From positions 1,612,001 through 1,676,000 of the forward strand of contig NZ_CAAHFG010000001.1 in the NCBI RefSeq assembly GCF_900890425.1: DNA of 64,000 nt. The letters run 5' to 3'. The stretch is from Pontiella desulfatans. Lineage in GTDB: Bacteria; Verrucomicrobiota; Kiritimatiellia; Kiritimatiellales; Pontiellaceae. This document shows, piece after piece, positions 47,033 through 51,794 of this stretch. The notes under the pieces were generated by a model. It did not search any database. It was given only the letters and a program-made list of their open reading frames with translations, and had not been told where the DNA came from. How positions within the stretch are numbered: the stretch's first letter is position 1; every line of letters starts with the position of its first letter. The position numbers and the translations under genes are program-made.

Positions 47033-50000
47033 CTACTTTCCTGAGCGGTTTCGAGCAATGCGCATGGTGCTTTCGATCAACTCATCCATCTGATCCAGCG
47101 TTAGGTCGATGTCTGTTTTATCGCGGACTTCATCAAAGAGATAATCTTCAATTTCATTGATGGCGAGGTTCTGGGCATCACTGTCATCCCAGAAATGCAC
47201 CAGCGAAATATGGGACTCAAGAATCCGGGCGATGGCCAGTGCTGCATCCGCAGAGAGCATTTCATTCTCTTCTCCGAACAGCGGTTTGATTACACCGAAG
47301 TAGGCCATAGCCTCCTCATTACTGCTGATGGATGTGGGGATGTCGTCGTGTTGTTTGGTAACCACCCGATGGCGAATATCAGTCACTTGTTCCAGATATT
47401 CCTGTGCGGAGATCACTTTCGCGCGAAAATCATCGATGGCATCCTGAATCAGTTTGGAAAATTTGGAATAAAACGCCGGGTCTTCCTCCATGCTTTCGGT
47501 AATGACTTTCTTTGTTGCATGGGCAATGGCATCGGCCTTGGCTCCGTCCGTTTTCTTTACGGTATAAACGCCCATCTCCTCTTTGACCGCACCAAACAAC
47601 GTGTCATCAAAGATGTTCACCGGTTCATTCAGTTGGATTGCTTCGTTCGCCTGGATATGCGTGTCCAGCAGCTTTTTGATCTTAGGTTCATAATCCCGGT
47701 AATCGATGGATTCGGCATAGCGCATTTTGACGGAGACTTTCAGTTTGTGAAACCGCTTCAGGTCAGCCTTGTATTGTTCCAGCTTCAGATCCGTGATTTC
47801 CGTGACAAAACGTTCGCTCGACAAGGCGACGGCCAGGGTTTTGCTATATTCGGTCAGGCGGCTGTAAAACTCATCGCGCAGGTCTTCATCAGCCAGGAGT
47901 TGTTCATAGGCATCTTCGTCATAGGAGTTTTTCACTGCCTTGAAGAGATCCCACAGATCTGAATAGCGTTGGGGCAGTTGGTCGATCTGGCTTTGAATTG
48001 AGGTCAGGCTTCCGGCCAGATCATTTTCGTCAAAGCCTTCAAAGGCATCGTACATGCTCAGCGCCTTGTCCAGCTCTCCCAAAAGGCCGACATAATCCAC
48101 GACATAGCCATAGTCTTTGTTTTCATGAACGCGGTTCACTCGGGCGATGGCCTGCAACAGGGTGTGTTCCCGCAGCTCTTTACAGAGATAAATCACGGTA
48201 TTACACGGGGCATCAAAGCCGGTTAACAGTTTGCTGACCACAATCAGTATTTCCGGGTCTTCGCCGAATTTAAACTGGTTAATAACCTGCTTGTTGTAGT
48301 CCTCTTCGCTCCCGTAGCGCGCCATCATCTTGTTCCAGAAGCGGAGCACTTCATCCGAAGGTTCTTCATCCGTTTCTTCATAGCCGTCGCGGGTGTCGGG
48401 ACCGCTGATGATCACTTCGCACGACACCGTATCCAGTTCATTCAGGAAATCACGATACATTAGAGCTGCGGCTTTACTGGGAGCCACCAGCTGCGCTTTA
48501 AAGCCGGTTCCCTGCCAGGCCTTGCGATAATGCTCGCTGATGTCGTAAGCGCGCATATAAACGACCTGTTCGGTTTTATTCAGCATTTCCGCACGGGCAT
48601 ATTTCTTCTTCAGGTCGGCCTGCTGTTCCTTGGTCAACCCTTTGGTGTGCCGTTCAAACCAGAGATCTATGGCCGCTTTATTCTGTTCCATCTCCACTAG
48701 ACGGCCTTCGTAGAGCAGGGGAACCACTGCGCCATCCTCTACAGCTTGGCCGATGGAATAATGCGGCTCGATCAAACCGCCGAATTTAATAAAGTTGTTT
48801 TTCTCCTCCTTCATCAACGGTGTACCCGTAAAGCCGATATAACACGCTTTCGGGAACATCTGACGCATACGGGCCGAGAACGAACCAAACTGCGTGCGGT
48901 GGCTTTCGTCCACCAAAACAAAGATATCCGAAGAGTCGTCTTTGAAGGATCGCACCTTCATCGCCTTATCAAATTTATGGATCAGCGTCGTGACGATGCC
49001 CGCCTTGTGGGTGGCCACCAATTCCAGTAGATGGCGTCCGGAAGTGGCGCGTTCCGGATTCAGGCCGCAGGCGGCAAAGGTATTGCCCAGCTGTCGATCA
49101 AGGTCTTCGCGATCGGTTACCAGCACGATCCGGGGATTGGAAATGTCTGGATCCAGCGCCAGATTTCTCGCTAGCATCACCATGGTCAATGATTTGCCGG
49201 AGCCCTGGGTATGCCAGATAATGCCGCCTTTGCGCTGTCCCTCGGAGTCCTGCTGCTTGATCCGCTCCAGTGTGGATTTAATGACAAAGAACTGCTGATA
49301 GCGGGCAATTTTTTTTATCCCGCCATCAACCACGATAAATTTAAATACAAGCTCCAGTAAACGTTCAGGACGGCACAGCGCATGCAGTGCCTTATCCTGC
49401 TCCGTAACCAGCCGATCACCTTCATCTTCCAACCGTTGGAAAAAAGTTCGCGCTACAGCAAACTCACCACTGAAAAGCCGATCTTTGTTTTCAGCGGTCA
49501 GGGTTTTGTTAGTAATCCCATCAACCTCCAACTGACAACCATCAACTGCAGGTTCCTCTTTCCAAATACCCCAGAATTTTTTTCCGGTTCCGACGGTCGC
49601 ATACTGCGCTTCATTTTTGCTGACGCCCATTACGAGCTGGGCATAGACAAACAGCTTCGGAATAAAGTCATCGCTCTGGTTGCGGATGGATTGTGAAATC
49701 GCCTGATCAATTTCAATGTCCGGCGCTTTACATTCAATCACCGCCAGCGGAATTCCGTTCACAAACAGGACAAGATCCGGGCGGGCGGTTTCCGTGCTGC
49801 GGGTGCGCTCCACACTGAATTCGGGAACCACATGAAATACATTATTCGCCGGGTTCTTCCAGTCGATGTAATGCAGATTAAAACTTTTGGAATCCCCTTC
49901 AATCGACTGCTCCATCGCGGTGCCGAGGGTGATCAGATCATAGACCGCTTCATTGGTTTTTTGCAGACCGTCGAACTTAATGTTTTTGAGCTTTTGGATC

Positions 50001-50260
50001 GCCGACTGAATATTCTCCTCGCTGAAAAGGTATTCACTGCCCTTGTAGTTGATTTGGTTGATACGTTTTAACTGATTACGTAGCGTGTTTTCCAGCAGCA
50101 CATTGCTCCGCTTGCTCAACCGTTCTTTCAGCGCTTCTTCCGGGCTGAGATATTCATAGCCCAGCTTCAGCAGCACCTGGAGTGCCGGTATCTGCGACAG
50201 ACGCTTCTCGTTTGTCGGGAATGATGAGTGATGGGTGATGAGTGATGAGTTATTTCCCAT
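47033..50260 (-). CDS. hsdR: Type I restriction enzyme R subunit (HsdR)
   Basis: A 1075-residue motor-nuclease subunit that translocates and cuts DNA lacking the cognate methylation. The nuclease core near residues 150-180 reads RPDLVLFVNGIPLAVIECKA (PD-ExK). WHTQGSGKSLTM near 350 is Walker A and LVDESHRTQ near 446 the DEAD box; ITGFDAPCNTVIYLCKEL and QAIARVNR are later helicase motifs. The chosen ATG 50260 lies inside the S23-type gene and the first dozen residues (MGNNSSLITHHSSF) are encoded by a GATGAGT-type repeat, so the native start may have been replaced. Conserved sequence begins at EKRLSQIPALQVLLKLGY. Confidence 0.93.
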   Translation of the reverse strand: MGNNSSLITHHSSFPTNEKRLSQIPALQVLLKLGYEYLSPEEALKERLSKRSNVLLENTLRNQLKRINQINYKGSEYLFSEENIQSAIQKLKNIKFDGLQKTNEAVYDLITLGTAMEQSIEGDSKSFNLHYIDWKNPANNVFHVVPEFSVERTRSTETARPDLVLFVNGIPLAVIECKAPDIEIDQAISQSIRNQSDDFIPKLFVYAQLVMGVSKNEAQYATVGTGKKFWGIWKEEPAVDGCQLEVDGITNKTLTAENKDRLFSGEFAVARTFFQRLEDEGDRLVTEQDKALHALCRPERLLELVFKFIVVDGGIKKIARYQQFFVIKSTLERIKQQDSEGQRKGGIIWHTQGSGKSLTMVMLARNLALDPDISNPRIVLVTDREDLDRQLGNTFAACGLNPERATSGRHLLELVATHKAGIVTTLIHKFDKAMKVRSFKDDSSDIFVLVDESHRTQFGSFSARMRQMFPKACYIGFTGTPLMKEEKNNFIKFGGLIEPHYSIGQAVEDGAVVPLLYEGRLVEMEQNKAAIDLWFERHTKGLTKEQQADLKKKYARAEMLNKTEQVVYMRAYDISEHYRKAWQGTGFKAQLVAPSKAAALMYRDFLNELDTVSCEVIISGPDTRDGYEETDEEPSDEVLRFWNKMMARYGSEEDYNKQVINQFKFGEDPEILIVVSKLLTGFDAPCNTVIYLCKELREHTLLQAIARVNRVHENKDYGYVVDYVGLLGELDKALSMYDAFEGFDENDLAGSLTSIQSQIDQLPQRYSDLWDLFKAVKNSYDEDAYEQLLADEDLRDEFYSRLTEYSKTLAVALSSERFVTEITDLKLEQYKADLKRFHKLKVSVKMRYAESIDYRDYEPKIKKLLDTHIQANEAIQLNEPVNIFDDTLFGAVKEEMGVYTVKKTDGAKADAIAHATKKVITESMEEDPAFYSKFSKLIQDAIDDFRAKVISAQEYLEQVTDIRHRVVTKQHDDIPTSISSNEEAMAYFGVIKPLFGEENEMLSADAALAIARILESHISLVHFWDDSDAQNLAINEIEDYLFDEVRDKTDIDLTLDQMDELIESTMRIARNRSGK
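50222..50253. repeat. GATGAGT-type repeat, left boundary of the S23 gene
   Basis: Several GATGAGT/GATGGGT units in tandem ending GATGAGTTAT (50244-50253). The inverse ATAACTCATC occurs at 50620-50629. The stop codon of the S23 gene lies in this repeat. Confidence 0.7.
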
Positions 50261-50621
50261 CTTTGCCTCCGGTTTGGGCGGTTTTAACGATGGCCGTGAG
50301 GATTCGAACCAGTTCGTCTGCTTCCTGTATGATTTCATCTAATTTTGTTTCTGAAATCAGTTCTGCTTCCTTGAGAAGACGTAACCAATAAAGCGTTTCC
50401 CGTGCTTCCTTTCTGGAAATTGACATTTTGGCTATGAAATCCGGTTTGCTTTGTCCTGCCTGAGCCTCTTCAGCATTAGCGCCTATCGACGTGCCCGAAC
50501 GTAATAGTTGATGGGCCAACGTTCGCGATACCCGATCTTGTTTCTCCAGAAACTGGCAAAGTTTCACGATCCGCACAGCAAACTGGAAGGAACGATCTGT
50601 AATTTTTAATTCAGCACTCAT
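50250..50621 (-). CDS. Four-helix-bundle protein (23S rRNA intervening-sequence/S23 family)
   Basis: A 123-residue helical protein of the S23/IVP family: ITDRSFQFAVRIVKLCQFLE, LAHQLLRSGTSIGANAEEAQ (signature), KMSISRKEARETLYWLRLLK, LDEIIQEADELVRILTAIVK. Members form pentameric four-helix bundles and often occur in rRNA intervening sequences or between unrelated genes. Here the start codon lies in a CTCATAACTCATC repeat and the stop in its inverse, so the gene is exactly framed by inverted repeats like a mobile cassette. It interrupts the rhuM-hsdR part of the restriction operon. Function unknown. Confidence 0.88.
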   Translation of the reverse strand: MSAELKITDRSFQFAVRIVKLCQFLEKQDRVSRTLAHQLLRSGTSIGANAEEAQAGQSKPDFIAKMSISRKEARETLYWLRLLKEAELISETKLDEIIQEADELVRILTAIVKTAQTGGKDGK

Positions 50622-50640
50622 AACTCATCCTTCATAATTT

Positions 50641-51612
50641 CTACGCTTCTCCAATCAGATTAGTCAGCATGGCGGCAATCACCTCTTTTTCCTGGGGGCG
50701 GCTTTCAGCAATCATCAGCGTCATGGCCACCAGGGCATTGTCGGCAATTCGCTTGTGGCCCTCTTTGTCATAGATCAGTTTATTCTTTTCCGCAAAGCGC
50801 AGGAAAACCGCCGCGGCGATCCGTTTGTTTCCATCGACAAAGCTGTGGTTTTTGACGAGAAAATAGAGCAGGTGCGCCGCTTTTTCCTCCACCGACGGAT
50901 AAACGTCTTTTCCATCAAAACTCTGCATAACCGCATTCAGCGAACTGTGCAGGCTTTCATCCTTTTCTTTTCCAAAAACCGCCGAGTCGCCGAATTTTAT
51001 GCGCATTGCATCAATCAGCTTCAGGGTTTCCTCATAGCTCACCGGTTTCGCTTTGCGTTTGGATGTTTTGCCGATGCCCACCCGCTGGTGATCATAATCA
51101 TCCAGCAGATCCAGCGCGCCGGCATATTCCGATACGGTTTGAAGGAGGATCGATGCTTCATCGCCGGAGAGCGCTTTGCGCTTCGAAATATCGGCAGCCA
51201 GTTTGACGACCTGACCCAGCTGCTTTAATCGTTTTTCGTTTGCCGTGTACCCCTGGACAATATGCTGTTTTAAGACGTTAGTCGCCCAGATGCGGAACTC
51301 CGTGCCGCGTTTGGATTTGACCCGGTAGCCCACGGAAATAATCACGTCCAGATTGTAAAAACGCACCTTTCGGCGCACCTTTCGGTTGCCTTCCTGTTGA
51401 ACTACCGAGGATTCCTCGGTAGTTGCCGCTTCTTCCAATTCACCTTCTTTGTAGGCGTTGCGGATATGGAGTCCAATGGTGTCCGTATCCTTCTCGAACA
51501 GCAGTCCCATCTGCTTCTGCGACAGCCAGATGGTTTCCTTTTCGAGCGTCGCATCCAGCTGAACACCGCCATCCTTGCTTCGATAAATGACCAATTCCTG
51601 TTTTTTACTCAT
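50641..51612 (-). CDS. rhuM: RhuM-family protein with Fic/Doc domain
   Basis: A 323-residue protein. Residues 1-125 are the virulence RhuM domain (IYRSKDGGVQLDATLEKETI, FYNLDVIISVGYRVKS, FRIWATNVLKQHI). Residues about 195-320 form a Fic/Doc domain with HSFVDGNKR at 256-264, the HxFxDxNKR catalytic loop that transfers a nucleotide or phosphate to a target protein. The combination often accompanies type I restriction systems and is suspected to modulate host or toxin functions. The start is two bases after the stop of the hsdR-like stub, whose GAGG serves as ribosome site. Confidence 0.9.
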   Translation of the reverse strand: MSKKQELVIYRSKDGGVQLDATLEKETIWLSQKQMGLLFEKDTDTIGLHIRNAYKEGELEEAATTEESSVVQQEGNRKVRRKVRFYNLDVIISVGYRVKSKRGTEFRIWATNVLKQHIVQGYTANEKRLKQLGQVVKLAADISKRKALSGDEASILLQTVSEYAGALDLLDDYDHQRVGIGKTSKRKAKPVSYEETLKLIDAMRIKFGDSAVFGKEKDESLHSSLNAVMQSFDGKDVYPSVEEKAAHLLYFLVKNHSFVDGNKRIAAAVFLRFAEKNKLIYDKEGHKRIADNALVAMTLMIAESRPQEKEVIAAMLTNLIGEA

Positions 51613-51614
51613 AA

Positions 51615-51794
51615 TCAGGCCTCATGTTCAGGGATAGGAAACCGCAAAGGGCGCGAAATACGCGAAAAGGACGGGAAGGATTGTGGCCGCGAGAGAGCGC
51701 AGAAATCGCAAAGACCGTTACCGCCGGAATTGATCAGCAGCTGGAGCGCCGGGATCTGCGAAAGATATTTTTCGTTAAAGCGGAAACCGTTCAT
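51615..51794 (-). pseudogene. hsdR N-terminal stub fused to intergenic-repeat sequence, 59 codons
   Basis: ATG 51794 begins MNGFRFNEKYLSQIPALQLL, which matches TNEKRLSQIPALQVL near the start of hsdR, about 1.6 kb away. The DNA is similar but clearly diverged, so it is not a simple duplication of the present gene. After ~22 codons the frame reads through a GCGAAA/GCAAAG repeat (51639-51716) and stops two bases before rhuM. It looks like the remnant of an earlier hsdR allele. Confidence 0.65.
51639..51716. repeat. Intergenic repeat, GCGAAATACGCGAAAAGG type
   Basis: ACCGCAAAGGGCGCGAAATA, CGCGAAAAGGACGG and, further on, GCGCAGAAATCGCAAAGACC are successive wordings of the dispersed repeat. It interrupts the hsdR-like stub after its 22nd codon. 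Confidence 0.6.

Follow-up and report, generated by a model that had tools for sequence, protein, structure and literature searches.

An S23/IVP gene framed by inverted heptamer arms in a Pontiella desulfatans restriction operon: a probable minimal inserted cassette

S23/IVP genes are found in many phyla, and we know of no function for them. The S23/IVP gene located in a restriction operon of Pontiella desulfatans is probably a minimal inserted cassette, in which the gene lies between two inverted arms that would both have been made from one seed during insertion. Such a cassette measures about 430–550 bp and consists of one S23/IVP gene and two arms of 7-nt (sometimes 8-nt) tandem repeats. 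The evidence comes from the window, that is, the whole 64,000-nt stretch of DNA analyzed here, and from S23 loci of related and distant genomes.

The S23 gene of the window (50250–50621, minus strand) encodes a four-helix-bundle protein of 123 amino acids and lies outside any 23S rRNA gene, between rhuM and hsdR. In the profile search the protein matched PF05635 with 89.8 bits (cut-off 33.8) and TIGR02436 with 106.3 bits (cut-off 24); beside the latter, PF05635 is the sole matching profile, and a Y1/HUH transposase domain is absent. In the AF2 monomer model (pLDDT 92) it folds as a four-helix bundle, with TM scores of about 0.8–0.9 (0.82–0.90) to 2rld and about 0.7–0.8 to 2gsc. The downstream (3′) arm (50222–50253, minus strand), which reads ATAACTCATCACTCATCACCCATCACTCATCA in the sense orientation, contains an array of 4.1 copies of TGATGAG at 50222–50250, and with a TRF score of 51 this is the top tandem repeat of the 64 kb. 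The upstream (5′) arm (50615–50637, minus strand; TTATGAAGGATGAGTTATGAGTG in sense) consists of degraded heptamers and includes the S23 start codon. The two arms contain the halves of the inverted repeat I3 (50238–50253 and 50620–50635; 16 nt, 88% complementary), which has the start codon beside one of its arms and the stop codon within the other. The 64 kb contain just two exact copies of GATGAGTTAT, one at either end of the gene; when one mismatch was allowed, seven matches were found against 2.46 expected, and seven were reached in 4 of 100 shuffles. Moreover, the upstream flank aligned to the inverted downstream flank scores 19.0, a value reached by 1.6% of mispaired S23 flanks. The framing by inverted repeats proposed in the first-pass annotation is thus borne out by the TGATGAG-type arms, I3 and the flank score, but its statement that the repeats delimit the gene to the base was too strong, because the 5′ arm consists of a short, degraded stretch (AAATTATGAAGGATGAGTTATGAGTG). 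In the whole genome, a long pattern of the window's own unit had no match, and ATGAGTNATGAGT had four, two of which are the window locus itself; no S23 gene is present at the other two sites (L401 and L402).

Inverted heptamer arms are a general feature of S23 genes. The set analyzed comprised 167 genes, drawn from 57 genomes of the class, 51 of which contain S23 genes, and from 80 named loci of many phyla; the named loci were gathered with an alignment of close S23 sequences and therefore over-represent canonical S23. Arms were scored by local alignment of the 150-nt upstream flank of each gene with its 150-nt downstream flank in reverse complement, with mispaired flanks as the null. Inverted arms above the 95% null were found at 134 of the 167 S23 genes and, among 274 control genes from these loci, at 15 (Mann-Whitney p=2.6e-55), at least one of the arm-bearing controls being itself an S23 gene; above the 99% null the counts were 80/167 and 4/274. 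Clear arms are missing in about 20% of S23 genes, and the two flanks resemble each other far less when compared directly than when one of them is inverted. Autocorrelation peaks at 7, 14 and 21 nt appear in both flanks and are absent inside the gene and 400–500 nt upstream. The array period is 7 nt, sometimes 8: period-7 arrays amount to 4.38/kb beside S23 against 0.18/kb elsewhere in the loci (24-fold) and period-8 arrays to 0.91/kb against 0.011/kb, and few arrays have any of the remaining periods between 5 and 11. Named examples in Nostoc, Anabaena, Dolichospermum, Bernardetia and Treponema are plasmid-borne.

Both arms of one S23 locus share a unit, yet the unit is specific to the locus; among 90 strong units the commonest was found four times. 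Left arms are purine-rich and right arms pyrimidine-rich. A conserved unit grammar was considered and dropped, as the signal is weak and AG-biased (logL 231 versus 200–208 for shuffled units). The first-pass annotation had expected the same repeats to bound other S23 copies and had regarded flanks devoid of them as evidence against mobility. Taken to the letter, such flanks are what other copies have, since each locus carries its own unit with the period of 7, yet the cassette idea survives in this other form.

Insertion is visible from pairs of empty and filled sites. In Nostoc sp. C052, the plasmid pC052_A is filled and carries perfect 35-nt inverted arms, and pC052_D of the same strain is empty. 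Homology between the two stops exactly at the arms, the right flank being 99.7% identical over 1036 nt and the left 90.7%; because the left flank is only 90.7% identical, recombination may have contributed. At this filled site, the single precise case, 188 nt of the target are missing and no target-site duplication is visible. Three further Nostoc plasmids are empty, and the 427-nt arm-to-arm piece of C052 is the unit of homology at other loci. S23 also lies between cas2 and cas1, in antisense orientation, in Nostoc TCL26-01 and Anabaena cylindrica, and the two cas genes are adjacent in Nostoc UHCC 0870 and N. edaphicum. In one genus (g36), the gap between rfbF and rfbG measures 5 or 10 nt in two genomes (G122, G137) and holds a cassette in two others (G073, G093), and in G044 a cassette directly precedes rfbG; at the same rfbF–rfbG junction, G021 and G055, which belong to another family, have another S23 (52% identical) whose unit also differs. 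In Xanthomonadaceae, S23 sits between accB and accC. The empty sites that the first-pass annotation proposed to look for thus exist for hsdR, rfbF–rfbG, cas2–cas1 and the C052 plasmids, and the S23 gene with its two inverted arms forms a unit that enters operons.

These sites also bear on the idea that S23 was inserted into, or recombined between, heptamer arrays that were already present. Solo heptamer arrays do occur in S23-rich genomes, and in Xanthomonas and Nostoc (PMC4692102). However, one split array would yield direct and not inverted arms, no array was found at the empty sites of Nostoc, rfbF–rfbG, cas2–cas1 or hsdR, and the units are locus-specific, so that we regard this explanation as very improbable.

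At the window locus, the cassette appears to have altered a host protein. Transcription runs leftward in the order hsdM, hsdS, a relic of the hsdR 5′ end, rhuM, S23, hsdR and a ygjP-like gene. hsdR (47033–50260, minus strand; HSDR_N and SWI2_SNF2) has an array-encoded N-terminus (MGNNSSLITHHSSFPTNEK...). Its probable start codon (50260–50258), preceded by a GGAGG Shine-Dalgarno sequence (50270–50266), lies just before the array, and the first residues, MGNNSSLITHHSSFPTNEKRLSQIPALQ, come from the array, which supplies roughly residues 3–14. The earlier claim that the array provides both the start codon and the first residues of hsdR therefore stands for the residues and probably not for the codon. 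In relatives of the same genus and the same class, HsdR begins M(S)PFxFNEKxLSQIPALQ, without S23 in front. A second species of the genus (G120) has kept the order rhuM-S23-hsdR (82% nucleotide identity) together with an array-encoded HsdR start, MKNNPSLITHHSSFFSDEK. Because two species have an array-encoded start and the relatives have native ones (MSPF.FNEK as opposed to MGNNSSLITHHSSFPTNEK), the comparison supports the proposed chimeric start, in which the array has replaced the native beginning of HsdR. Conservation of the rhuM-S23-hsdR order across distant taxa had been named as an observation that would speak against a cassette; among the genomes examined, the order is common only to this one same-genus species.

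The rhuM-like gene (50641–51612, minus strand; RhuM plus Fic/DOC, PF13310 and PF02661) also lies between hsdS and hsdR, and therefore S23 may not have arrived alone. Upstream of rhuM is the hsdR relic (51730–51794, minus strand), recognized as a 79% direct repeat (D1) with hsdR and by its translation, MNGFRFNEKYLSQIPALQLLI, which is a native-type start; this relic was sought in G120 and not found. Between the relic and rhuM lies a nonamer-like array relic (51637–51670, minus strand; CCTTTTCGCGTATTTCGCGCCCTTTGCGGTTTCC), which resembles the right arm of PDDEXK_3 cassettes (cf. L260 and G120). A nonamer-like array is present just upstream of rhuM both in the window (TTTCGCGCCCTTTGCGGTTTCC) and in G120 (TTCGTGTTTTTCGTGGTT, L212), and the units differ.

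Two other arrangements of S23 genes were noted. At L100 (G003:C125), S23 lies directly between an apparent N-terminal piece of HsdR and an AlbA_2-like gene downstream, so that an hsdR start may have been disrupted here a second time, independently of the window. The window's own genome contains two S23 genes that are each split by one insert of about 300 nt with a GIY-YIG-like ORF (L007, L009, L010, L013; G000:C1:918840-919442 and 926128-926730); the inserts are nearly identical and the S23 halves differ.

Framing by inverted arms extends beyond S23. PDDEXK_3/GxxExxY genes of the same class (L247–L276, the class-level PF13366 loci) have inverted arms above the same threshold in 28 of 29 cases, with the autocorrelation peak at lag 9 and not 7; the arms are of the type ACCACGAAGG..CACGAAG / CTTCGTG..CTTCGTGGT, with a period of about 9. 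This speaks for framing as a wider phenomenon with gene-family-specific periods and weakens the claim that S23 alone makes arms, so that the process may not depend on S23. A few other genes bear inverted arms too. Several stand-alone DUF559 genes (L371–L382, PF04480 loci; L128:5662-6103) adjoin CCCTCACCCTAACCCTCTCCC-type repeats; DUF559 was rejected as a third framed family, since the result is mixed and inverted framing inconsistent.

Arms around several gene families could be the work of a general host process, in which template-switching repair at the ends of any newly inserted small gene makes the arms and S23 is one passenger, and the C052 insertion does resemble a repair event with target deletion. 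This explanation seems rather unlikely to us. Within one class the period depends on the gene family (7 for S23 and 9 for PDDEXK_3), and ordinary genes have no arms; therefore, the gene family matters. Furthermore, among 16 sampled genomes, period-7 arrays were found only in S23-rich ones. Eight S23-poor genomes gave none in about 0.63 Mb, and eight S23-rich genomes gave 14 in 0.55 Mb, 13 of which do not adjoin an S23 gene; since the 14 arrays stem from 4 of the 8 genomes, the association with S23 richness is only suggestive when counted by genome. Xanthomonas is rich in GGGAATC arrays, which often form convergent pairs (PMC4692102), and the arms of the S23 gene between accB and accC in this genus contain GGGAATC-like units.

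Among known elements, the nearest to the cassette is the 23S rRNA intervening sequence (IVS) that codes for S23. The IVS of Coxiella burnetii is about 430 nt long, occupies helix 45 of the rRNA and is cut out by RNase III; its inverted termini form a 28-bp stem, tandem heptamers (GACAGAT) are found directly upstream of the S23 start, and the S23 ORF is decaying (PMC4990558). The cassettes share with it the size of about 430 nt, the single S23/IVP ORF, the inverted termini and the tandem heptamers. They differ in that they reside in protein operons, that their S23 is under purifying selection, that both arms are heptamer arrays and that no signature of RNA pairing is seen.

The likeness to the IVS raises the question of whether the cassette works as RNA: RNase III would cut a long stem formed by its transcript, S23 mRNA would be excised from the operon transcript, the arms would thereby be kept complementary, and insertion could occur through reverse transcription, in which S23 would play a part like that of Avd. 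The heptamers and the RNase III-excised stem of the Coxiella IVS (PMC4990558) agree with this, as do the resemblance of S23 to Avd and the strong sense co-orientation with operon neighbors: the cassette is co-oriented with both neighbors in 102 of the 107 cases in which these share a strand, which may be the result of selection after insertion. Avd of diversity-generating retroelements has a similar four-helix-bundle fold, though its structures (4dwl and 8ub7; TM about 0.7) are more distant from the window model than 2rld and 2gsc; the Avd profile NF033474 gave no match for the window protein, and 20.5 bits for L016 against a cut-off of 80. Unlike diversity-generating retroelements, the cassette has no retroelement parts. 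The arms themselves speak against an RNA element. Their mismatches in the transcript comprise 239 of G-U type and 286 of A-C type, and the missing G-U bias argues against selection for RNA pairing; at most shared sites the arms show no covariation, and in cas2–cas1 the cassette is antisense. An RNA element is accordingly an unlikely explanation.

The same comparisons indicate how the arms of a DNA cassette would have arisen. The two arms belonging to one insertion agree more closely than arms crossed from one insertion to another (means of about 53 and 37, respectively). This advantage is not seen between most same-site orthologues, the arms of which have drifted without tracking each other; the own-versus-cross test gave 13 of 22 overall, which is not significant, and the split into same-site and different-site pairs was made after seeing the data. 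Continuing co-evolution of arms at shared sites was thus mostly not seen. Nostoc arms match within but not between loci (AATTCGT in C052 and AATTCGC in C057), and Nostoc sp. UHCC 0870 (L290) has a quite different 35-nt non-heptamer repeat, GGACTAACGTCCCGCTCCGCTAACGCAATTCGCA, inverted in both arms. Matched arms within loci together with untracked drift at shared sites fit arms set from one seed at insertion, and matching arms appear to be set at that moment and then to decay. The gene itself is under purifying selection (dN/dS 0.04–0.20). Same-site S23 orthologues reach dS values of up to about 1.6; cassettes have thus been long resident, and their movement must be rare.

The mode of movement can be sketched from these comparisons. 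The cassette enters mostly at transcribed operon junctions in the sense orientation, sometimes deletes part of the target and leaves no visible duplication, the arms being the ends of the unit. The arms of one insertion share a repeat unit and those of different insertions differ, and once resident they appear to diverge independently. Most likely, both arms would be made or renewed at the DNA level during insertion, from one seed. S23p of X. campestris is reported to be a pentamer (PMC4990558), and the S23 pentamer would probably serve as a nucleic-acid-binding accessory. The cassette contains no transposase, recombinase, nuclease or reverse transcriptase, S23 being its sole gene, and because S23 shows none of the folds known from enzymes that cut or copy DNA, we infer that these steps would fall to enzymes of the host or to others acting in trans. 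The chimeric start of hsdR in the window would be the product of such a cassette.

Other mobile elements resemble this arrangement in part. In REP/RAYT systems, short inverted repeats likewise flank one gene, and more repeats are scattered over the genome; the framing of the gene is alike, whereas the S23 cassette has no HUH (Y1) transposase and its unit is not common to the loci of one genome. In insertion sequences and MITEs, inverted ends delimit the inserted unit and empty sites exist, and MITEs also have no transposase. The S23 cassette is like them in its inverted ends and empty sites, but its ends are not conserved between copies, it has no transposase and no target-site duplication was seen. 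The heptameric SSRs of Xanthomonas and Nostoc (PMC4692102), the former often in convergent inverted pairs, and the TAACTGA repeats of Beggiatoaceae (PMC4679880) are 7-nt intergenic tandem repeats, like the S23 arms. A term search of the main texts of these two papers found no mention of S23 or of a mobile cassette. No description of S23 cassettes in operons, of S23 with heptamers or of GxxExxY cassettes was found in the literature searched, which included few subscription papers.

Locus-specific inverted heptamer framing gives the S23 family a concrete, testable biology. It connects three matters: the S23 ORFs of rRNA intervening sequences, the high share of heptamers in the repeats of bacteria, and the small genes found at operon junctions such as hsdR, cas1/cas2, rfbF/rfbG and accB/accC. 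For a mobile element it would be unusual to have ends that agree inside each copy and differ from copy to copy, and cassette insertions also rewrite host proteins, as exemplified by the chimeric HsdR start. More tentatively, and with odds that we put somewhat below even, S23/IVP could be the dedicated protein of widespread minimal mobile elements with freshly made inverted heptamer ends, which would seed solo heptamer arrays in trans and thereby cause 7-nt repeats to be over-represented. The S23 cassette may help to account for the abundance of 7-base repeats in the genomes of bacteria.
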